64,000 bases of DNA from Denitrovibrio acetiphilus DSM 12809 (lineage in GTDB: Bacteria; Chrysiogenota; Deferribacteres; Deferribacterales; Geovibrionaceae), in assembly GCF_000025725.1 (NCBI RefSeq), contig NC_013943.1, forward strand, positions 620,001 through 684,000. The letters are read 5' to 3'. Shown here in pieces: positions 2,647 through 42,176 of this stretch (position 1 is the first letter of the stretch; the number at the start of each line of letters is the position of its first letter). Position numbers and translations under genes: made by a program. The notes below the pieces were generated by a model. The model did no database searches. It was given only the letters and a program-made list of their open reading frames with translations, and was not told the DNA's origin.

Positions 2647-2718
2647 GTTCAAATCCTTTCACCCCGATTACTTAAGGATTCGACTGAAGCGGCTTCCCAA
2701 GAGCCGCTTTTTTATTTG
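2647..2718 (+). other. Attachment-site repeat, copy 1 (tRNA 3'-end core)
   Basis: These 72 bp are identical to 25888-25959. They begin GTTCAAATCC, continue TTTCACCCCGATTA, and include a terminator hairpin. The first part reads as a T-loop (TTCAAAT), T-stem 3' strand, acceptor strand CACCCCG and discriminator A, as at the end of proline tRNAs. No tRNA body precedes it: the bases before cannot pair with CCTTT to complete a T-arm. It is therefore a junction between elements rather than an intact tRNA gene. The integrase gene ends inside it. Confidence 0.8.
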
Positions 2719-3871
2719 TCACAAATTCGTCACAATTTGCAGAAAAAAGCAGTCCTTTTCTAGTTCCGTCATTACGGTTTATCCTGTTTCCGTATTTTCT
2801 AAACAGCATTTGCAGACTGGAGTGACCAAGCATATTCTTTATCCAGTTTATCTCCTCACGAGCATCCAGCATCATACAGGCGAATGAGTGCCTCATCTGA
2901 TTAAGGATTCTATACCTGAGACCTAGAGCCTTTAAACATGGCTTGAAATAGTCTTCTGTAATATTTTGGGTTTTAGTAAATGGTTCGCCGTAACTGGTGA
3001 CAGTTACCCATTCAGACTTCATAAATGTGTACTGTTTTTGGAAATGCAGATACTCGTCTAGCATTGGGATAATGTCGATTACTCTGTAGTCAGCAGTTTT
3101 GGTGCTCTCCTTGATTCTGTTTTTAGTGATTGTGCGTTGAACGATGATTTTATGATGCTTGAAATCTATGTCAGACCATTTTAAAGCAATAGCCTCGCCC
3201 ACACGCATACCAGTATAAAAACCGAGTGCAAAAATAATAGTCATATGAGGATGGTGCTGTCTCATCCAGTCGAGAATCATGGATACTTCTTCTATTGAAA
3301 ACGGATCAACTTTCTCTGTCTGAACTCGGGGCTTCTTAACATGTTTACACGGATTTTTAGATAGTAAGTCATCTCTGACAGCTGACTCGAATATACTGTG
3401 AAATACCCCAAGATAGTTGGCGATTGTTTTAGCAGAAAGCTCTGAATTAGATATATATTGCTGAATGTGTGATGGTTTGATTTCGCTTAGCTTAAAACGG
3501 GAGAAGTAAGACGAGAGTTTGCTTACAGCAGTGCTATAGGTTTTGTAGGTCGAGTATGCTACAGAGCTTTCGATACTGGATAACCATAGCTCTGCATACG
3601 TATCGAAAAACATATCAGAGTTGAGATGAAGTTGCTGGTTTTCTCTGACGTACTTTGAATCTGGAAAGTATGTTTCGTATTTGAAAGTCTTTTCTGCGAT
3701 TTTACGTTCAATTTCACTAAGTAAAGCACTAGCAGATCGGCAATCTTGGCATTTGCAAGTATCTTTGCCAGTTTCGCAATAGTAAAGGCTTTGCTCGTAA
3801 CGCCTTATACCTTGAAACATAAAAATTATTTCTAATCGGGCTTTTTTGCCTCTACGTCTAATGCTTCCCAT
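2672..3871 (-). CDS. Tyrosine-recombinase integrase (island type)
   Basis: A site-specific integrase that would insert or excise the element between the flanking 72-bp repeats. It has an N-terminal cysteine-rich patch (CETGKDTCKCQDC), a SAM-like core-binding region, and a catalytic domain with Arg in 'GFYTGMRVGEAIALKW', 'RHSFA', 'LGHSSLQM' and a C-terminal 'YGNR' tyrosine. The start at 3871 has AAGGAAATAT before the ATG and matches the paralogue at 29008-30180, which begins MGTIHARGKK; the frame extends upstream without support. The last codons lie inside the attachment repeat, as is usual for tRNA-integrating islands. A palindrome lies just before the start codon. Confidence 0.9.
   Translation of the reverse strand: MGSIRRRGKKARLEIIFMFQGIRRYEQSLYYCETGKDTCKCQDCRSASALLSEIERKIAEKTFKYETYFPDSKYVRENQQLHLNSDMFFDTYAELWLSSIESSVAYSTYKTYSTAVSKLSSYFSRFKLSEIKPSHIQQYISNSELSAKTIANYLGVFHSIFESAVRDDLLSKNPCKHVKKPRVQTEKVDPFSIEEVSMILDWMRQHHPHMTIIFALGFYTGMRVGEAIALKWSDIDFKHHKIIVQRTITKNRIKESTKTADYRVIDIIPMLDEYLHFQKQYTFMKSEWVTVTSYGEPFTKTQNITEDYFKPCLKALGLRYRILNQMRHSFACMMLDAREEINWIKNMLGHSSLQMLFRKYGNRINRNDGTRKGLLFSANCDEFVTNKKAALGKPLQSNP
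2687..2713 (+). terminator. Rho-independent terminator within attachment repeat
   Basis: AAGCGGCT and AGCCGCTT form an 8-bp stem (2687-2694 / 2702-2709) around a 7-nt loop, followed by a run of T. It would originally have ended transcription of the tRNA used as integration site. On the minus strand the same bases encode the last residues of the integrase (KKAALGKPLQSNP). Confidence 0.8.
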
Positions 3872-3884
3872 ATATTTCCTTTGA

Positions 3885-3898
3885 TTACCTATAGGTAA
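3885..3898. promoter_or_regulatory. TTACCTATAGGTAA palindrome before integrase
   Basis: A perfect 14-bp palindrome located 14-27 nt upstream of the integrase start and overlapping the end of the excisionase-like frame. Eleven of its bases (TTACCTATAGG) recur at 6346-6356 upstream of the XRE regulator gene. A shared operator for one repressor is a plausible reading. Confidence 0.45.
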
Positions 3899-3899
3899 A

Positions 3900-4130
3900 C
3901 TAGTGTTTGAGTGCTTTAGGCGCAAGGAGTATCTTGATTTCGGGATAAAAGAATCTAAGTACTCGATCTTTTACAAAGTAATGCACGTTATATCTCAAGA
4001 ATTCGCTTTTGACCCATCGGTCAATAGTGTCTTCAGATACATCCAATTCTTTTGCTAAACGTTTTTTGCTCATGAAGTCTGGCTTCTCGGGGATATAGAT
4101 TTCATTAACTACAATATTTCTCTCTTTCAT
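3900..4130 (-). CDS. Excisionase-like helix-turn-helix protein
   Basis: A 76-residue protein directly upstream of the integrase. 'KKRLAKELDVSEDTIDRWVKSEFLRYNVHYFVKDRVLRFFYPEIKILL' is a MerR-like winged helix of the kind found in excisionases: a first helix with 'LAKELDVSEDTIDRWV' and a wing ending in R-hydrophobic-F-Y. A similar gene occupies the same place before the second integrase (30190-30426), sharing the 'IVVNE(I/Y)Y.P.KPDFM.KKRLA.EL' start. ATG at 4130 is preceded by GAGGTGAAGT. It probably directs excision or controls integrase expression. Confidence 0.75.
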   Translation of the reverse strand: MKERNIVVNEIYIPEKPDFMSKKRLAKELDVSEDTIDRWVKSEFLRYNVHYFVKDRVLRFFYPEIKILLAPKALKH

Positions 4131-4230
4131 CACTTCACCTCAGACATTGAGACTAGCCCAAGAAAAAGTGAATAAGTGTTGTTTTTGCAATTTCTGGAAA
4201 CTTTTTTTGTATTATTACTAAAATGTTACG

Positions 4231-4520
4231 AGCCACTATTAGCCACTATGTGGCTTGATATTTATATCGACCCTGTCCGCAGGAATTATGTGAGTGAAAC
4301 CTTATTCCCAGCAGACAGGGTGCATAAGTAATAAATATTTATTCTCACCCTGTCTGACTATTTAATTTCTTATTATTACGAACCCTGTCTGATTTACTTA
4401 TAGCTCAGACAGGGTATTCTTAGTTTGTTAGCTTAATTATTTTTTATGGTTTGTTCTTAAATCTTATATGCTGTCATTATTAGCCGTTGATGTGTGCAAT
4501 GAGCCTATAAGTGGCTAATA
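4231..4520. repeat. Cluster of ACCCTGTCTG and TATTAGCCACT repeats
   Basis: Five copies of the 10-mer ACCCTGTCTG (one with a C variant) lie within 146 bp: direct at 4270, 4347 and 4382, inverted at 4312 and 4406. They are framed by TATTAGCCACT at 4237-4247 and its exact inverse at 4510-4520. The last two 10-mers face each other over 14 nt and could form a hairpin. The stretch 4131-4715 holds no gene I can support. Arm-type integrase sites, an origin with iterons, or binding sites for a phage-type regulator are all possible. Confidence 0.7.
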
Positions 4521-4715
4521 TTGCTGAGAATCGAAGATTTAAACTGTGCGTGATTTTGTCATTTTATAGTATGTCGCCTTTCGGCAAAGATGTTCTTTTG
4601 ATTTTAAGGCTATCTGAGCCGTTCTGATGCATATTGATATCTGCCCTTGTTGATCGTCATTTTATTTTGCAATTTATTAAACTAGGACTATATTATTTAC
4701 CATGAGGTGAACGAT

Positions 4716-4829
4716 ATGCCTATATTTGGTTTATACTTATTAATATTCTTGCTTTTAGCTATGTTGACGATCGGTACTTATGTTGAGCATAGAATTGATC
4801 GAAAATATGATGAAAAGAACCGCCGCTAA
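4716..4829 (+). CDS. Small single-span membrane protein
   Basis: A 37-residue frame, MPIFGLYLLIFLLLAMLTIG followed by a charged tail ending YDEKNRR. It starts at ATG 4716 with GAGGTGAACG in ribosome-site position. It consists of one transmembrane helix and a basic cytoplasmic-type tail. Other small proteins of this build occur in the same island (6701, 8028, 8502). No function is known. The gene ends within a GC-rich hairpin. Confidence 0.5.
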   Translation: MPIFGLYLLIFLLLAMLTIGTYVEHRIDRKYDEKNRR

Positions 4830-6409: not shown

Positions 6410-6643
6410 ATGGAAGATTATCAGGAGTTTCTCAAACGTGTTTCAGACAATGTGAAGCACATGCGTATGGAGCACGGCAAAACCACAGAAGAAATTGCCA
6501 TCGAAGCTCTTGGTCACAGCTCCACCGCCTTTGTAAATCAGGCTGAAAACCTCAAAAACGGAAAACACTTCAATCTGAAGCACCTGTATCTGCTTGCAAA
6601 ATACTATGGGTGTAGTGTCGAATCATTTTTTGTATCGGACTAA
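6410..6643 (+). CDS. XRE-family helix-turn-helix regulator
   Basis: A 77-residue DNA-binding protein made almost entirely of one Cro/CI-type helix-turn-helix: 'VSDNVKHMRMEHGKTTEEIAIEALGHSSTAFVNQAENLKNGKHFNLKHLYLLAKYYGCSVESFF'. It is divergent from the lipoprotein gene. The GAGG site about 8 nt upstream supports this start. It is a candidate repressor of the island, possibly acting on the TTACCTATAGG sites here and before the integrase. Confidence 0.8.
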   Translation: MEDYQEFLKRVSDNVKHMRMEHGKTTEEIAIEALGHSSTAFVNQAENLKNGKHFNLKHLYLLAKYYGCSVESFFVSD

Positions 6644-10661: not shown

Positions 10662-12395
10662 ATGTTGTCAATGCAGGCAAAGTATTGTGATTATCTGGAG
10701 AAAGTCGAAAACGAACTGAAGATATTAGATTTACACTCAGAAACTACACAGTCCTTTAAGTTTGATGAATTTAAAGAAGCTATTATAAATAAAGAGTTAA
10801 CAATACCTGTAGTGGGAGCGTTCAGCGCAGGGAAAAGCTCATTTATCAATTCATTTTTAGGAAAGGACTATTTATCAGTCAATATTACTCCTGAAACTGC
10901 CATTGCCACCGAGCTAAGATATTCTGCTGATGAAAAGATCGAAGCCATTGCATCTAGTGGCAGTCCTACAACATATGAAATTACTGAAATGGCAAGTGTT
11001 ATAAGTAAGTCTGAGCAATTTAAATTTATCAGACTCTACCTAAATAACGCAAATCTGAAAAGTATAGCACCTCTTATCTTAGTTGATATGCCTGGTCTTA
11101 ATTCTCCTATGGACTTACATAATCGTGCGATAATTGAATATATAGAAAAAGGAGTTTACTATCTTGTATTAACCAGTATTGAAGAAGGAACTTTAACTCG
11201 TTCAATGGTAAGGCAATTACTGGATATAAAAGAGTTTGGAAAAGATTTCTCGTTTTTTCTAAGCAAAACAAATTTGAGATCCGAAAAAGAAGTAGAAGAA
11301 ATTAAACAAAATTTATTAGAACAGATAAATGATTATCTGGAAATGTCAAAAGAGATTGTTTCTATTGACGACAATGGCGGAGATAATCTGAGAAAGCTCT
11401 TAGATAAAATTGATCCGGATGAACTTATTGAAAACATCTTTGCAAATCCTCTTAAAGACCAGTTCTTTACTATCTCTGACTCTATAAATACAGCAATAAG
11501 CTCGTTTTCAAAAACAAAAAATGAAAATGAAGAAAGTCTACAAATATTGGAAAGCTCACTCAATAACCTTATTGATGAAAAAAAACGCCTAATACAGGAA
11601 ACTACAGATCAATATACAAATATCAATGTTGATCTGATTGTAGAAAAAATAGGCAGAAAACTTTTAGACAATGCAGACGAATTAGCGAATAAAGCTTTGT
11701 CTAGTGATCAAGATGAGTTAAAGAACACAATATCAGAAATTGTAAGACATGCTGTAATCTATGAAATGAAAAAGATTGTTGATAACTTTAGTGATGAAAT
11801 TGTTAATAAATTCGCTATTAAAATTAAGGAAATAAATAGTGAGACTTCAGACTTTATTATCCCTGATCTTTGGGTAGATAAAATTGCTGATAGTGCCAAA
11901 AAAATTGCAAACTATACGGATTCCTCAATAAAAAAAATAATAGAAGATAGAAAAGGCAGAAGTGATACTGGAAATATGTATAAAACTATCACCACAGCTT
12001 TATCAATCTTGTCGAATGTTTTAAACCCTGTGTTGGAGTTGGTTATTGTTTTCCTGCCAAACGTCATAAATATGTTGTTTAAGAATTCTAATGAGCAACG
12101 GCAAAAAGAGGCTGTAAAGAGTAAAATTATGACTGAAGTAATACCCGGCATTAAGTCTAATGTACGAAACAATATCCCACCTGTTATGAAAGAACAACTG
12201 ACTAGTATAATTGATAATATCGGATCAAGGTTTGAAGAAGCAATAACTGTCAGAAAAGAGGCTGTAGCGGAAGCGCAGAAAAAACTGGAAAAGGAAAATA
12301 CTGATATTAATGCCCAGATATCAAATTATAAAAATGCTTTGTCCAACATTAACACCCTTGCAAATAATCTTATTTTCAAAATAGAAGGAGCCTGA
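10662..12395 (+). CDS. Dynamin-family GTPase 1 of a three-gene operon
   Basis: A 577-residue dynamin-like large GTPase. G1 is GAFSAGKSS (residues 52-60); G2 threonines lie in 'NITPETAIAT' (75-84); G3 is DMPG (142-145). At the G4 position is SKTN (201-204) instead of TKxD, so base recognition may be relaxed. Long helices (about 270-420, 500-570) form the stalk, and a hydrophobic segment near 447-472 (LSILSNVLNPVLELVIVFLPNVINML) could insert in membrane as a paddle. AGAAGGAG precedes the ATG. The next gene starts 2 nt after its stop. In the family, GTP hydrolysis drives assembly on and remodelling of membranes. Confidence 0.85.
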   Translation: MLSMQAKYCDYLEKVENELKILDLHSETTQSFKFDEFKEAIINKELTIPVVGAFSAGKSSFINSFLGKDYLSVNITPETAIATELRYSADEKIEAIASSGSPTTYEITEMASVISKSEQFKFIRLYLNNANLKSIAPLILVDMPGLNSPMDLHNRAIIEYIEKGVYYLVLTSIEEGTLTRSMVRQLLDIKEFGKDFSFFLSKTNLRSEKEVEEIKQNLLEQINDYLEMSKEIVSIDDNGGDNLRKLLDKIDPDELIENIFANPLKDQFFTISDSINTAISSFSKTKNENEESLQILESSLNNLIDEKKRLIQETTDQYTNINVDLIVEKIGRKLLDNADELANKALSSDQDELKNTISEIVRHAVIYEMKKIVDNFSDEIVNKFAIKIKEINSETSDFIIPDLWVDKIADSAKKIANYTDSSIKKIIEDRKGRSDTGNMYKTITTALSILSNVLNPVLELVIVFLPNVINMLFKNSNEQRQKEAVKSKIMTEVIPGIKSNVRNNIPPVMKEQLTSIIDNIGSRFEEAITVRKEAVAEAQKKLEKENTDINAQISNYKNALSNINTLANNLIFKIEGA

Positions 12396-12397
12396 TT

Positions 12398-14722
12398 ATG
12401 AATCCTATAGAATTGTCTGAAAAACTTGAAACTATTGTTGGGGAACACGCTGAACTTCTTGCGAATGAAGCAAAATCTTTGAAAGATGAATATGCTATCA
12501 TATCACCAGATGCTTTACAAAAAGCTGTCGATGAAATTAACGCAGAAAACAGGTTGCTACGTATTGGTATCGTTGGTCGTGTTAAAGCCGGGAAATCATC
12601 ACTGCTGAATGCAATATTATTTGATGGAGAATCTATACTGCCTAAAGCTGCCACACCAATGACTGCTGCTCTGACTCAGATAACTTACGGTGATACACTG
12701 GCTGCGGAAGTTGAATTCTTTACGCAGAAGGATATTGATGAGATTAAGAACGATTATGAATTAGTTGAAAAAATGATAGATAAGAAGCTGAACGAACTCA
12801 TTCAGAAAAACCAAGAAAAATCACATAAAACAAAAGAAAATGTACCGAACCCAGATGATTTTGGGTTAAGGGAAAAAGCCATAAGAGCAGTCAAAAGAGA
12901 TTGTGAGGGTAATATCAGCCTGATAGCAGCTCATGAACAATTCCAGAAAATGGCAGAATCAACTGTTAAGTATCAAGAACTTGAGTCCAACATAGTGATA
13001 AACAGCAGTTCTCTGAATAATTTGCAAAATGAACTGATAGATTATGTCGGGGCTGACGGTAAATATATGCCTTTTACAAAGAGCGTTCATCTCAGGCTTC
13101 CTCAGGAAAACCTCAAAGATATTTCTCTTGTTGATACACCAGGAATAAATGATCCTGTTCAATCCAGAGAAGGGAGAACGAGAGAACTTCTGAAGTTTTG
13201 TGATGTTATCTTTATAGTTAGTCCGTCCGGTCAGTTTTTTAGTAATGAAGATACTGAGTTGCTTGATAGAATAACGTCTAAAGAAGGTCTCAGAGAATTA
13301 TATGTAGTAGCCAGCCAGATAGATCTTCAACTATATGGAAATTTAAAAAAAGAGAATAACGGAGTCCTGAATGCGGTGGTAGAGAAGGCCTCTTTTATAA
13401 TTTCGGATCACATGGTGTCTACTCTTGAAGATATCAAAAAAGATCATCCTGAAATCGGAAATGCATATGATCAACTAATAAATGATAAAGATTTTAGGCT
13501 TATATTTTCATCAGGGATATGTGAAACATTAATTAAGGATTTTGATGATAGGTCTAAATGGGACTCTGGAGCCTGTAAAGCATGGGAAAATCTATTAAAG
13601 AATTATCCAGACTACTTTTCAGATGCCGACAGACAGCTATCTCTTGAAAATTTAAAAATGCTTTCAAATAAAACAAAATTACTAAACATAATCGATGATG
13701 TCAGGAGAAAAAAAGATGAAATTTTACAAATGAGAGTCAATGATTTTCTTGATGCTAAAAAGCAATCCCTAATCACTTATAGGAATGAACTGGGAAAATA
13801 TGTTCACGGGCAGGTTGAACTTATTAAGAACAGCAATATTCATCAGCTTGGAGAAAAGAAAGAAAAATTAAATATATTAAAAGAGAAGTCTTCAGGTTTA
13901 GTGGATGAGGAATATCAGACCTTAGTAGACGAAGTTGAACGTAAAATCATTAGGGAATTAAACAGTAAATTAGAAACATATTTTCATGAAACAGATAGTA
14001 AAGTCTCCGGTAGTGTTAAAACTGAATCCGAAACATATACTGTTAACAAAAGTGGAGTTCGTTCATGGTTAGCAAGAAAACTTTGGGGTGGTGGAACCGA
14101 AACTAAGACAAGGACATATAACACTGTCAGAGTGGGGGCTGTAAAGGGAGCAATTGAGGAACTTACTCTTAAAATCGAGCGAGAACTTGATTTACATTCA
14201 AGAGATATTCTTGCTGAGTGGAAAAAGCACCTACAGGTAGTCATTACTAAAAAACTACGTGAAAGCATAGACGATTCTTATATAGACATAAACAATATTC
14301 TCAGGGCATTAAGAAATGTTATTAATTCAGCAAAAATACCTGATTTTACATATGAAGGTTACCTTCCTGATTCTCTTTCGGACAAAAAAGAAGACAATAT
14401 TAGTTCACGTGGTTTTTTAGGTTTACGTGGTTTTTCAGGTTCTTCCCACGGCAAAGTGTCAGGAACTCTTACAGGCGACAGGGCTGATGATTTCATTGAT
14501 GAGGTAGGAGAATATATTTTAAAGTTTAAAAAAGAAGTTGGTAGGGATATCAAAAGTTTTGCCACAAGTCTAGATAAGAACTTTAAAAATATAAATTTCA
14601 GCAGAGAACTATTCGGCTATATAGATGATGAAATAATACAGTTGGAAGAGCAAATAAATAACAAAACAGTTACACTGGAGAATTATAGTAGAGTTACTAA
14701 AAAGTTAGGAGATGCTGTGTAA
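12398..14722 (+). CDS. Dynamin-family GTPase 2 of a three-gene operon
   Basis: The largest of the three, 774 residues. G1 is GRVKAGKSS (60-68), G2 probably in 'KAATPMTAALTQITYG', G3 DTPG at about 245 ('LVDTPGINDPVQSREGRTRELLKFCDVIFIV'), and G4 SQID near 306. A long charged helical insertion (about 105-210) separates G2 from G3, like LeoA/LeoB-type proteins. The C-terminal half is helical, with a glycine/serine-rich loop near 670-690 (GFLGLRGFSGSSHG) that may be a membrane-binding tip. There is no strong transmembrane segment. It overlaps the third gene by 1 nt (TAATG), so the proteins are likely made in fixed ratio and may hetero-oligomerise. Confidence 0.85.
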   Translation: MNPIELSEKLETIVGEHAELLANEAKSLKDEYAIISPDALQKAVDEINAENRLLRIGIVGRVKAGKSSLLNAILFDGESILPKAATPMTAALTQITYGDTLAAEVEFFTQKDIDEIKNDYELVEKMIDKKLNELIQKNQEKSHKTKENVPNPDDFGLREKAIRAVKRDCEGNISLIAAHEQFQKMAESTVKYQELESNIVINSSSLNNLQNELIDYVGADGKYMPFTKSVHLRLPQENLKDISLVDTPGINDPVQSREGRTRELLKFCDVIFIVSPSGQFFSNEDTELLDRITSKEGLRELYVVASQIDLQLYGNLKKENNGVLNAVVEKASFIISDHMVSTLEDIKKDHPEIGNAYDQLINDKDFRLIFSSGICETLIKDFDDRSKWDSGACKAWENLLKNYPDYFSDADRQLSLENLKMLSNKTKLLNIIDDVRRKKDEILQMRVNDFLDAKKQSLITYRNELGKYVHGQVELIKNSNIHQLGEKKEKLNILKEKSSGLVDEEYQTLVDEVERKIIRELNSKLETYFHETDSKVSGSVKTESETYTVNKSGVRSWLARKLWGGGTETKTRTYNTVRVGAVKGAIEELTLKIERELDLHSRDILAEWKKHLQVVITKKLRESIDDSYIDINNILRALRNVINSAKIPDFTYEGYLPDSLSDKKEDNISSRGFLGLRGFSGSSHGKVSGTLTGDRADDFIDEVGEYILKFKKEVGRDIKSFATSLDKNFKNINFSRELFGYIDDEIIQLEEQINNKTVTLENYSRVTKKLGDAV

Positions 14723-16224
14723 TGAGTCTGAATGAAATTAAATCAATAACGCCTTTGCTGGAAGAGCTTACGAAGTTTATTAAATTTAACCGTAGAAAAA
14801 CTACAGAGCAAATTGCCGATTTTCTCGGAGATATAGAGACAAGATATGTTGATCTATTGCATGAATCTGATGAGAAGAACTCTAAGATATCAGAAATGCA
14901 AAAAAAAATTGTAGATAAAGATGAAACGATTTCTGGACAACTAGAAAAAGAACAAGCTTTAATTGCAGATATGGATAAAATCAAAGCTGAATCTGAAATA
15001 TTGGCAAAAGAAAAATATGACATCCTATATAAATATGATTTTATTTCAAACATACTATCCGCAGAAAAAAGAACTTCAGAAAGTATGGAGAAACTGTCAG
15101 CATTGTTTAATGAAGATTTTATCAGTTTTGCCAATCAGGAATCGTCTTTGGCAGAGGAAGCCGAGGCTATTATTGCGCTACAGAATATTGAAAAGAAACT
15201 TAAAATGATTTCTGCCTTTCCAGAAATTTATAACAAAAAGATTATTGCTCTCGGTGGGGGTTTTAGTTCTGGCAAGTCATCATTCATAAACAGTTTCTTT
15301 GAATCTACAGACATTCTTTTGCCGGTAGGTATAAATCCTGTTACTGCTATACCAGCATATATAGTTTCTGGCAGAGATAATACTGTGAAGGGTCTATCTA
15401 AAGATCAAGGATGCGTACATATACCTCATGGAATATATACAAATCTATCGCATGATTTTCTTAAATTATTCCCATTCCGTATGAAAGATATTTTACCAGT
15501 CATGGCTATCGAGACACCCTTTGAATATGACAGCATCTGCTTTATTGACACACCAGGCTACAACCCTGCTAGTAATAATTTGACTGAGGAAGACGTATAC
15601 ACAGCAAAAGAATATTTAGATCAGGCAGACGCAATTATATGGCTGGTGGGTGTAGATTCCACAGGGACTTTGCCTGCATCTGATCTAGATTTTTTATCTA
15701 ATATCAATTTAGAAAAGAAAAAAATGTATATTGTTTTAAACAAAGCTGATTTAAAGTCTGAAGAAGATATTAAAGATATCATGGAAAACATTCAGGATAT
15801 TTTGGAAGATGAAGAAATTAATTATTCAGGAATCAGTGCATACAGCTCAATAAATCAGGATGAAATACTTTTTGACAAAATGTCAATTTCAGAATTTCTT
15901 GACAATGAAAATAATAGCACGGAAGTCAAGGAACAGGTTTCTATAGAGCTGGATACAGTATTTAATATGTATTATAAAGCGATTAATGAAGATATTGACG
16001 CTGCTAATGATATAAAAAGAGCAATTCATTCTTTAGAACTGGATATGCTTGAGTCAGGTTATGACTTTTCAGATGATAAGATCGGCAACAGCATTGAGGC
16101 GATAAAAGAACGTATTCATTGCAATGAATTAGAACAAAATTTAAAAGATTTGGATCTATTAAAAAACAAGATTTTTATTGCGTTGGACAATGTTTTTAAA
16201 GAACTCAATATAGATAAAAGATAA
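14722..16224 (+). CDS. Dynamin-family GTPase 3 of a three-gene operon
   Basis: A 500-residue protein whose first 120 or so residues are a coiled coil (repeated K/E/I/L heptads in 'ISEMQKKIVDKDETISGQLEKEQALIADMDKIKAESEIL'). G1 is GGGFSSGKSS (about 176-185), G2 lies in 'PVGINPVTAIPAYI', G3 is DTPG (about 276) and G4 is a canonical NKAD (about 339). After the GTPase domain only a short helical tail remains, so it lacks the long stalk of the other two. It may act as a regulatory or bridging subunit. The gene starts inside the stop codon of the second GTPase gene. Similar multi-gene dynamin operons include LeoABC of enterotoxigenic E. coli. Confidence 0.85.
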   Translation: MSLNEIKSITPLLEELTKFIKFNRRKTTEQIADFLGDIETRYVDLLHESDEKNSKISEMQKKIVDKDETISGQLEKEQALIADMDKIKAESEILAKEKYDILYKYDFISNILSAEKRTSESMEKLSALFNEDFISFANQESSLAEEAEAIIALQNIEKKLKMISAFPEIYNKKIIALGGGFSSGKSSFINSFFESTDILLPVGINPVTAIPAYIVSGRDNTVKGLSKDQGCVHIPHGIYTNLSHDFLKLFPFRMKDILPVMAIETPFEYDSICFIDTPGYNPASNNLTEEDVYTAKEYLDQADAIIWLVGVDSTGTLPASDLDFLSNINLEKKKMYIVLNKADLKSEEDIKDIMENIQDILEDEEINYSGISAYSSINQDEILFDKMSISEFLDNENNSTEVKEQVSIELDTVFNMYYKAINEDIDAANDIKRAIHSLELDMLESGYDFSDDKIGNSIEAIKERIHCNELEQNLKDLDLLKNKIFIALDNVFKELNIDKR

Positions 16225-24488: not shown

Positions 24489-24491
24489 TTC

Positions 24492-24508
24492 GTCACAGTA
24501 TTTGTCAC
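24492..24508 (+). repeat. GTCAC direct-repeat pair, right end of element 1
   Basis: GTCAC at 24492 and 24504, 12 bp apart. If the IS256 copy and its target duplication are removed, the pair lies about 101 bp upstream of the attachment repeat at 25888. The same distance is seen at 2545 (GTCAC pair, 102 bp) and on the minus strand at 42276 (GTGCC pair, 99 bp). Probable integrase arm-type sites. Confidence 0.5.
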
Positions 24509-24569
24509 ACTTAAAGCGGTCTTGAGCGGATATGAGCGGTGGAAACCCGTTGGAATAGGGGGCACAGAA

Positions 24570-25856
24570 GAGCGTGTAAATAAAAGTGTGTAAACGTCGT
24601 ATGTGTTAAACTAACATGCGAGGTTTATGATGAAATTAGACAAGGACAAACTGAAAGAACTGCTTGCTGAAAGCGATGTAAAAACCACAGAAGACCTTCA
24701 GGTGTTTATGCGTGACATGATGAAAGAAGTCATAGAAACGCTCTACGAAGGTGAGCTTGAAGCCCATTTAGGCTATAAGAAACATGAACCGAACGTAAGT
24801 GACGGCAACAGCCGTAACGGTCGTTCTTCCAAGAAAGTACAATCACAAATGGGCGAAATGGAACTCGAAGTACCCCGTGATCGCCTATCAACCTTTTCGC
24901 CTGAAATAGTCAAGAAACGCCAGACAGATATATCAGGCATTGAAGCTAAAGTAATTTCCATGTATGCCAAGGGTATGAGTAACCGTGACATCAAAGAGCA
25001 CATCTTTGATATCTACGGTCATGAGCTATCGCCGGAGACAGTCAGCGTTATTACAGACAAGATTCTCCCACAGGCTAAAGAATGGCAGAACAGAGCCTTG
25101 GAAGAGATATACGCCATCGTCTTTATGGACGGCATGGTTTTAAAGATGCGTGTGGACGGAGCTGTTCGCAACGTCACTATCTACTTTGTGATCGGCATCA
25201 GCATGGAAGGTCATAAATCCTGTCTGGGGCTATATCTTGCCGAGACAGAATCCGCTAAATACTGGCTGACAGTTATGAACGAGCTAAAGAACCGTGGAGT
25301 ACAGGATATTCTTATCTTTGCCGTAGACAACCTCAAGGGCATCTCAGAAGCTATAACAGCCGCTTTTCCACAGTCTGAGATTCAGAAATGCGTAGTCCAT
25401 CAGATACGCAACTCTCTCCGCTTTGTGCCCTGGAAGGAGCGTAAGACTGTGGCTGCTGACCTCAAGAAAATCTATGCCGCAGCGACCGAGGAACAAGCCA
25501 GAGCTGAGCTGGATGCCTTTGCTGAGAAGTGGGACAGCAAATATCCTAACATCTCGAAATCATGGCGGAACAACTGGACTGAGCTTTCTACGTATTTCAA
25601 ATATTCCAAGGAGCTCAGGAAACTGATTTATACCACGAATCCGGTTGAGAGCTTCCATTCTGCCATCAGGAAATCGACTAAAGGAAAGGGAGCCTTCCCG
25701 ACGGAAGACTCCCTTGTAAAGCTCTTATATTTAGCTATTTTAGGTATCGAAAAGAAATGGACTATGCCAATCAGGGATTGGGGTGTAATATACTCACAGC
25801 TATATATCAACTATGAAGACAGAATTACGACTTTACACAGTTAATATGACAGGCTC
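24570..25856 (+). mobile_element. IS256-family element, complete (copy 2)
   Basis: A 1287-bp element with ends GAGCGTGTAAAT and ACAGGCTC-type inverted repeats, flanked by an 8-bp target duplication GCACAGAA (24562-24569 and 25857-25864). It sits in the right end of element 1, between the PIN gene and the attachment repeat. Confidence 0.95.
24627..25844 (+). CDS. IS256-family (mutator-type) transposase
   Basis: A 405-residue transposase. The DDE core includes 'AIVFMDGMVLKMRVDG' (first Asp), 'ILIFAVDNLKGISEAI' (second Asp), 'QKCVVHQIRNSLRFV' (the C/D-x2-H motif) and 'IYTTNPVESFHSAIRKSTKGKGAFP' (Glu). It is identical or nearly so to the copy at 54216-55433. ATG with an upstream CGAGGTTT site. 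Confidence 0.95.
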   Translation: MMKLDKDKLKELLAESDVKTTEDLQVFMRDMMKEVIETLYEGELEAHLGYKKHEPNVSDGNSRNGRSSKKVQSQMGEMELEVPRDRLSTFSPEIVKKRQTDISGIEAKVISMYAKGMSNRDIKEHIFDIYGHELSPETVSVITDKILPQAKEWQNRALEEIYAIVFMDGMVLKMRVDGAVRNVTIYFVIGISMEGHKSCLGLYLAETESAKYWLTVMNELKNRGVQDILIFAVDNLKGISEAITAAFPQSEIQKCVVHQIRNSLRFVPWKERKTVAADLKKIYAAATEEQARAELDAFAEKWDSKYPNISKSWRNNWTELSTYFKYSKELRKLIYTTNPVESFHSAIRKSTKGKGAFPTEDSLVKLLYLAILGIEKKWTMPIRDWGVIYSQLYINYEDRITTLHS

Positions 25857-25887: not shown

Positions 25888-25959
25888 GTTCAAATCCTTT
25901 CACCCCGATTACTTAAGGATTCGACTGAAGCGGCTTCCCAAGAGCCGCTTTTTTATTTG
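25888..25959 (+). other. Attachment-site repeat, copy 2 (tRNA 3'-end core)
   Basis: Identical to 2647-2718, including the AAGCGGCT / AGCCGCTT terminator at 25928-25950. As with copy 1, the bases before it (AGATTGA) do not complete a tRNA T-arm, so this is a junction between two integrated elements rather than the original target gene. Immediately after it is a direct repeat GGTGC at 25958-25962 and 25969-25973, 11 bp apart, in the place where copy 1 has GTCAC repeats. Confidence 0.8.
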
Positions 25960-30430: not shown

Positions 30431-31270
30431 TCACCTGTAGATAAGTTCTGAAAAATCTATAAGAGTGGTTGTAAAACTGAGGCTGGAATTTGCGAAAAAA
30501 TCCAGTATCTCTTGATCAGAGATGTTTCGTTCTCTGGCGTCTTTTATGTATCTTAAGAGTTGGCTTTTCTGAGAATTTATAGCATCAGTTGCATTTTCGA
30601 ATATGTTTGTCGCTATTGGGTCATTATTGAAGCTTTCATCAAACTCGTTAAGGCTCATTTCTAGCTGGTTGATCATGAGTGTAGATTCGATTGTTTCAGG
30701 TTTAAGTAGATACATGAAAGTAGGGCGGAAACCGTCATGTTTCTGGCCTGTAAGATGCTTATCGATAAGACATGTTTTGAAATAGGCTGATGGCGTTGTT
30801 TGTTTTGAATCCAGAGTGGATATTGCTAAGCTGACAGCTTCCATTGAACGCTTGCTGATTGTTTCTGGATTTACATATCCAAAAGAATCGCCACAGTTGC
30901 TGTTGTATGCATGCAAGAATTCTTGGATAGTATCATCATCAGCTTTTTTAGAATTATTTAATTTATTATTATTCTTATTATAGTGCTTGTCGTTTTCCAA
31001 TCGATCTGCGGTTTGAATAGCATTTCTCAATACCGATATCGCAGGTTGAAATTTATCATAGTTACAAATAGTTATGATAGTTTTTTTATTGTCTGATTCC
31101 TTGTTGATCATGTGGTCGTTTTGCAGTTTATCGAAAAAAGTACGTAGACGTGATTTTTTCCAGCCAAAATCCTTCATGAGAGTGCTTTCAGTGGTCAGAA
31201 GTTGCCCTCTCTGAAGCTTAATATGCTGATGAGGGTAATTAGCGTAACCTTCTTGGTAGTATGTGTTAAA
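30431..31270 (-). pseudogene. 3' part of a DnaD-like phage/island replication protein, split by IS21
   Basis: The C-terminal portion of a gene whose beginning is at 33899-34011. From 'TYYQEGYANYPHQHIKLQRGQLLTTESTLMKDFGWKKSRLRTFFDKLQNDHMINKESDNKKTIITICNYDKFQPA' onwards it is the winged-helix region usual in phage replisome-organiser proteins; later residues form DNA-binding or helicase-loading helices. The IS21 at 31271-33898 interrupts it after codon about 36. Joining both parts and removing one TTAAA duplication restores the frame ('WFHLLF-NTYYQEGYANYPHQ'). Confidence 0.85.
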
Positions 31271-31291
31271 TGCTCGTAGCGGCGTGACTCG

Positions 31292-31460
31292 GACAGCGTA
31301 GCGTTTTCCCGTCGGACACCGTAGCGGAAACATTCGGACACCATAGCGGCCGCCGGACAGTCTATCGGTGCTCGGACACTGTAGCGCTCGCCGGACACTG
31401 TAGCGCTCGCCGGACACTGTATCGGCCTTCGGACAGCTTAGCGGAGCTCGGACACTTCCC
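31292..31460. repeat. Nine CGGACA(C/G) repeats at the IS21 left end
   Basis: Repeats of the form TCGGACAC-TGTAGCGC-TCGC recur nine times at roughly 19-20 bp spacing, two of them exact tandem copies near 31390. They are typical multiple terminal repeats of IS21-family elements, but nine is more than the two to four commonly seen; the right end has three. Confidence 0.85.
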
Positions 31461-31500
31461 GCCAGCAAGGTTAACCTTTAAACTGTCCTCCAATAATAAG

Positions 31501-33779: not shown

Positions 33780-33903
33780 TTTATAGATGAACTGGTTCTT
33801 ATAATCAGAAAAAGGTTACCTTGCGGCAAAAGTGTCCGACGACCGATACGCTGTCCGAATGTTTCCGATCCCACTGTCCGAATAAGCCGATACAGGCATT
33901 AAA

Positions 33904-34044: not shown

Positions 34045-34153
34045 CTAGCTCAAGATAAAAATGTGGTCAAGTCTTTTTGTTATTATTTATACGTATATAT
34101 TTATTAACAAGTTAAAATATATCTTGATATTTATATAAAAGTATAAAATGCAT

Positions 34154-34209
34154 CTTTAATCTTTAATCTTTAATCTTTAATCTTTAATCTTTAATCTTTA
34201 ATCTTTAAT
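34154..34209. repeat. Eight perfect CTTTAAT heptamer repeats
   Basis: The 7-bp unit CTTTAAT is repeated exactly eight times (56 bp). It lies about 145-200 bp upstream of the split replication-type gene and about 118 bp after the end of the gene at 34327. Possibilities are phase-variable promoter spacing, replication iterons or a DNA-unwinding element. Between 34045 and 34326 there is no gene. Confidence 0.9.
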
Positions 34210-34326
34210 CAAGAAAGGTTGATAGGGTAATATTTAAGTGGAATATAAATTCTTAAAATACGACAGGAGTATAGGGTAGTAAGGTGTTGGGGGCATTAAT
34301 TTGGGTACAGTTGTTGGGCGTTATTA

Positions 34327-42139: not shown

Positions 42140-42176
42140 GTCGAATCCTTATATAATCGGGGTGAAAGGATTTGAA
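42140..42176 (-). other. Attachment-site repeat, copy 3 (partial, inverted)
   Basis: On the minus strand this reads TTCAAATCCTTTCACCCCGA, then TTA-TA-TAAGGATTCGAC, matching the first 36 bases of the 72-bp repeats with two changes. The rest (terminator half) has been replaced by the IS256 end. Inverted orientation relative to copies 1 and 2 shows that the segment beyond is inverted or belongs to a different element. Confidence 0.7.

Follow-up and report, generated by a model that had tools for sequence, protein, structure and literature searches.

Mobile elements of the Deferribacterota have been little studied, and the locus described here has to be read against better known systems. In tyrosine integrases the arm-type sites usually take the form of short repeats, and the origin of the satellite phage P4 is made up of decameric iterons that stand in both orientations over some 100-150 bp. 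Multi-site control of an integrase module has been described for the intS region of KplE1, which is bound by both IntS and the RDF TorI (PMC2951348). In the PLE satellite, an initiator whose N-terminal domain is DnaD-like (RepA_N) binds intergenic inverted-repeat iterons (PMC7145576). Tandem accretion of ICEs and IMEs at a single target gene is likewise known, as are mobilizable elements that have only an oriT (PMC5704250).

The site cluster considered here belongs to Denitrovibrio acetiphilus, whose genome has 3,222,077 bases, and coordinates are those of the window, by which we mean the whole 64,000-nucleotide stretch of DNA that was analysed. It is contained in element B, which occupies 2647-25959 (23.2 kb) and is limited by two identical att sequences, a 72-bp perfect repeat whose first part is the 3' end of tRNA-Pro(TGG); they lie at 2647-2718 (+ strand) on the left and 25888-25959 (+ strand) on the right. 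With tRNA 3'-end repeats on its flanks and an integrase gene inside, beside one att, element B has the make-up of a tRNA-gene integrative element. The whole tRNA-Pro(TGG) gene, the end of which is the att core, stands 76.6 kb to the left of element B (locus L019, 5966-6039), and the order is thus tRNA-Pro, element A (546.0-622.6 kb of the genome, 76.6 kb), element B and element C, which begins at 25888; the right end of element C was looked for and not found. The array takes up genome positions 545965-645959. A diverged, inverted piece of the att core at 42140-42176 abuts a partial IS256-type copy, which suggests a rearrangement, and three dynamin-like GTPase genes lie in a row in element B (10662-16224). 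In the part of element A that was searched with Pfam there are F-type transfer genes (TraC, TraG, TraH, TraN, TrbC, TrbI and TraK) and a coupling protein. A BREX gene of BrxL type and an actin-like partition gene are also found in element A.

All three elements share a recombination module, in which a homologous integrase is preceded upstream by a homologous HTH protein of 77-78 residues; identity to the element B integrase is 49% for C and 58% for A, and to its HTH protein 57% for C and 47% for A. In element B the tyrosine integrase, with an Arm-DNA-bind_2 domain, is encoded at 2672-3925 on the - strand (Phage_integrase, E 2e-17), and the 3' end of its gene falls inside the left att repeat. 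The 77-residue winged-HTH-like protein is encoded at 3900-4133 on the same strand. It weakly matches excisionase/regulator and HTH families, and its predicted structure, a helix-turn-helix followed by a hairpin, is of low confidence (mean pLDDT 51); we regard it as a probable excisionase or regulator. Recognised genes are absent from 4134 to about 4706, in agreement with the earlier note, which had described the part of the element that holds the cluster as gene-free. A small, divergent putative ORF for a hydrophobic peptide comes next (4707-4829, + strand; 40 residues from a GTG, 37 from an ATG).

Within this space, the block at 4171-4200 is a probable promoter/operator of the HTH-integrase operon. 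It is 94% identical to a block in G001, a genome of the same genus, where it likewise precedes an HTH gene and an integrase frame; that frame (locus L021, 10309-11520) seems to be interrupted by an in-frame stop. The two blocks have an exact 20-bp core in common, which, allowing two mismatches, has one copy in D. acetiphilus and one in G001. Across the order, 20-mers within two mismatches occur in 10 of 45 genomes compared with 3 of 45 for a reversed control, a background at which inexact hits outside D. acetiphilus and G001 may be due to chance. The conserved block would mark the intergenic space as regulatory, although no promoter stands out above the shuffle background.

The cluster itself spans 4270-4415, between the HTH-integrase operon and the divergent ORF and 137-282 bp ahead of the start of the HTH gene. 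Of the five copies of the 10-mer claimed earlier, four are exact, and the fifth, ACCCTGTCCG at 4270-4279 (+ strand), differs from ACCCTGTCTG by a single mismatch; the mixed orientation within 146 bp holds as described, being + - + + -. The exact copies are at 4312-4321 (-), 4347-4356 (+), 4382-4391 (+) and 4406-4415 (-), so that the second and third sites diverge across an AT-rich spacer and the fourth and fifth converge. Spacing from site to site is irregular (42, 35, 35 and 24 bp). The spacers between sites 2 and 3, 3 and 4, and 4 and 5 have 16-21% G+C, and the stretch that flanks the sites at 4416-4480 has 22%. An outer pair of exact inverses of 11 bases, TATTAGCCACT at 4237-4247 (+) and AGTGGCTAATA at 4510-4520 (-), lies 262 bp apart, as had been reported, and is 93% complementary when extended to 14 bases; AGCCACTAT is also repeated, at 4231 and 4241. 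However, when the 719-bp intergenic stretch was shuffled 500 times, 32 of the shuffled sequences also had an exact 11-base inverted pair, so that this enclosure is only marginally unusual and by itself weak evidence.

The clustering of the 10-mer sites is real and above chance. When the 719-bp stretch was shuffled 500 times with its dinucleotides preserved, no 10-mer ever had four or more non-overlapping copies, the maximum being three. In 200 kb of the surrounding chromosome, a scan for four copies of any other 10-mer inside 220 bp returned only a simple tandem array of a 7-bp unit (ATCTTTA, 8.4 perfect copies, 34152-34210). Nor does the word belong to a repeat family scattered over the chromosome, a finding that would have told against the earlier note: in the 3.22-Mb genome there are 11 other exact copies of ACCCTGTCTG, compared with 8 of the reversed control. 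A MITE or other multi-copy element was likewise rejected, the intergenic stretch matching, in a genome search, itself, its inverted 10-mers and two short sequences at chance level. The sites are near-identical and non-palindromic, and have letters in common beyond what mere complementarity would require, which points to a protein that reads the sequence. The cluster looks like a landing pad on which some DNA-binding protein would settle; most likely it is a control switch or what remains of a start site for copying.

Searches for relatives returned little beyond D. acetiphilus. The convergent and the divergent 10-mer pair are each found in one of 384 genomes, that of D. acetiphilus alone. A plasmid search gave no relatives, a phage search gave just matches of 25-29 bp in five records, and three paired-site searches of viral contigs matched six, one and two contigs, none with at least four copies within one mismatch over a comparable stretch. 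To judge from their letters, loci L055, L057 and L058 would be gene-internal repeats, and L142/L143 would have one hairpin of a phage sequence common to both. The element B integrase as query found no relative in one scan each of genome contigs and viral contigs. An alignment of the three integrases led to 80 kept loci at 22-33% identity, and at least four copies of some 10-mer (words with fewer than three different letters being dropped) occur in 11 of the 80, never of ACCCTGTCTG. The HTH protein search gave hits in two of 45 genomes of the order, D. acetiphilus itself and one weak. In the literature, ACCCTGTCTG as a string gave no mobile-element title among the matches listed, and a search on replication origins in integrative elements found none.

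The sites at which the integrase itself would act are very probably elsewhere, to judge from position and symmetry. Pairs of TTGTCAC-type 8-mers stand at the att cores, at +69/+80 (A-left and B-left), -104/-92 (A-right) and -1398/-1386 (B-right). In element B the likely left arm-type sites, TTGTCACA and TCGTCACA, are 11 bp apart at 2716-2734 (+), and the likely right ones, at 24490-24509 (+), are separated from their core by an IS256-type insertion. Subtracting the length of the insertion places this pair at about -103/-91. The IS256-type element (about 1,287 bp, 24570-25856), whose 8-bp target repeat GCACAGAA was identified by eye, may affect excision. TYGTCACM sites number 17 in 200 kb; eight of them make up the four core-side pairs, and the cluster contains none. 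We have rejected the cluster as a set of integrase arm sites, the likely ones being those of TTGTCAC type at the tRNA att cores.

What, then, might the cluster do? The account that we tentatively favour, at a little short of an even chance, is that it is a multi-site region, specific to the element, that controls the xis-int module. A DNA-binding protein, either the neighbouring HTH product or another regulator of the element, would occupy several of the five 10-mers or all of them. One candidate is a 77-residue protein encoded at 6410-6643 (+), which has weak likeness to phage transcriptional repressors and is without a Pfam match. Protein and sites would fold together into a complex that governs how far the xis-int operon on the left, and perhaps the small ORF on the right, is transcribed, and that through the operon controls excision. 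The cluster lies where an xis-int operator should lie, upstream of the operon in non-coding DNA; this position, the block at 4171-4200 and the assignment of likely arm sites elsewhere all favour such a control region. Against it, the sites reach up to 282 bp upstream, far for simple repression, and the cluster is missing upstream of the HTH-integrase module of G001. Since G001 shares the block and lacks the 10-mer pairs, the cluster is peculiar to element B. The paralogous modules also lack the word: within the window there is no 10-mer within one mismatch beside the HTH module of C, and a genome search found no exact 10-mer beside that of A, so that binding by the HTH protein would require a diverged specificity. 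Of the integrase/excisionase control first envisaged, the support from the position upstream of the HTH-integrase operon stands, while any role as arm sites is contradicted by the likely arm sites at the cores.

A control region is not the sole use to which an element might put such sites, and the alternatives differ in what they make of the same DNA. That the cluster is the replication origin of the excised circle, or a relic of one whose initiator has been lost from B or is supplied elsewhere, is unlikely, though it is the leading alternative. An initiator would bind the 10-mers and open the neighbouring AT-rich DNA, for which the spacers and the 4416-4480 stretch, with their low G+C, would be suited. 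Both A and C have DnaD-like replication genes beside the HTH gene: in C the gene (30431-31468) adjoins that for the HTH protein and has its upstream part cut by an IS21-type insertion, and in A a Cro/C1-type repressor gene comes next to the HTH gene, then, about 1 kb off, the gene for a 791-residue protein with a DnaD-like N-terminal part. Element B has the cluster where its sisters have replication genes, and an origin, either surviving as a relic or worked from outside the element, is for that reason conceivable. The origin proposed in the earlier note gains from these neighbours and loses elsewhere, however: no initiator was recognised among the 21 main ORFs of B with Pfam (small ORFs being scanned in part), no DnaA box within one mismatch occurs in the 3.6-kb locus L012, and the irregular spacing and mixed orientation differ from the regularly spaced direct repeats of iteron origins. 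Element A probably has such an origin, in the form of nine direct repeats, mostly of 21-22 bp, inside the gene for the 791-residue Rep protein (L019, 9218-9430), and the geometry of the cluster is unlike theirs. In element C, 19-bp repeats at 31286-31456 were considered as iterons and rejected, because the stretch recurs with a transposase gene at genome positions 723139-724000; these multiple repeats and those at 33830-33885 lie at the ends of the IS21-type element that cuts the replication gene. The partition site that was also suggested is not borne out: the Pfam search of the 21 main ORFs of B yielded nothing recognisable as a partition gene.

A structured RNA, or a single-stranded DNA hairpin, would use the letters of the + strand directly, its hairpins being closed by the outer pair; we hold this improbable. 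Folding of the + strand does beat shuffles strongly (z -6.5), and still does so with the five 10-mers fixed (z -3.3, 0 of 200 shuffles), in a fold that the outer pair closes. Once the outer 11-mers are fixed as well, however, the excess is almost gone (z -1.5, 14 of 200), and the residue on the + strand thus stems mostly from the outer pair. The fold of the - strand is explained by the 10-mers alone (z -1.0, 30 of 200), DNA folding parameters concur (z -1.1), and the two strong hairpins pair perfectly for just one base past the 10-mers. Much of the fold therefore arises because one word stands in both orientations, as protein sites would. In the window no Rfam match reaches gathering scores, and the three hits below them are all far under the cut-offs of their own families. 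When the two hairpins were turned into a covariance model, from a pair of identical rows of one locus with no relatives to show covariation, the model matched only the cluster locus among 16 loci and found nothing else convincing in 45 genomes, where its three weak matches in other genomes (E 0.004, 0.046 and 0.053 per genome) were read as terminator hairpins. Mobilisation of element B by its conjugative neighbour A, with the cluster as oriT, is very unlikely. The F-type transfer genes of A would provide for it, and both tandem ICE/IME arrays and mobilizable elements with an oriT alone are on record (PMC5704250), but the intergenic region of B has no stretch of more than 20 bp in common with A, the closest agreement (19 of 20 bases) falls outside the cluster, and no relaxase was recognised among the proteins of the part of A that was scanned. 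Least probable of all, to the point that we give it hardly any weight, is that the recombination complex itself uses the 10-mers as its integrase or excisionase sites: although they belong to the same module as int, they lie 1.55 kb from the att core, where the likely arm pairs are found.

Whichever role it has, the cluster is a small test case for how excision control is coupled with replication in elements of this kind, in an array at one tRNA gene where related excision modules stand beside three different neighbouring arrangements. There is a slim chance that we are dealing with an orphan origin-like site of a new sequence type, kept by an element that has lost its own initiator or never possessed one, at which a protein encoded outside the element docks to replicate or move it, or, as a variant, with a new structured RNA of the + strand. 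If the orphan origin were real, element B would be a parasite inside its own tandem array, and one more element that depends on others for replication.

Comparison with known systems places the cluster near several of them. The probable iterons of element A likewise belong to an element whose HTH-integrase pair is homologous, but they differ from the cluster in sequence, spacing and orientation and lie inside a rep gene. The P4 origin resembles it in its decamers, mixed orientation and extent of some 100-150 bp, and differs in sequence and in its setting, element B being without a recognised primase-helicase. Like the PLE origin, the cluster consists of non-coding, partly inverted repeats inside an integrated element, and the sister elements A and C encode DnaD-like proteins; the repeats are different ones, however, the spacing in B is irregular, and no initiator was recognised in B (PMC7145576). 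The A-B-C array shows the same stacking as the tandem ICE/IME arrays, with att sequence of the target gene in common, and nothing notable sets it apart from them (PMC5704250). Closest to the control region that we favour is the intS region of KplE1. There the sites are those of attL and lie over the int promoter, whereas the cluster of element B is 1.55 kb off the att core and separate from the likely arm sites; yet both have repeated short sites beside recombination genes, with control of the integrase gene as the likely role (PMC2951348).
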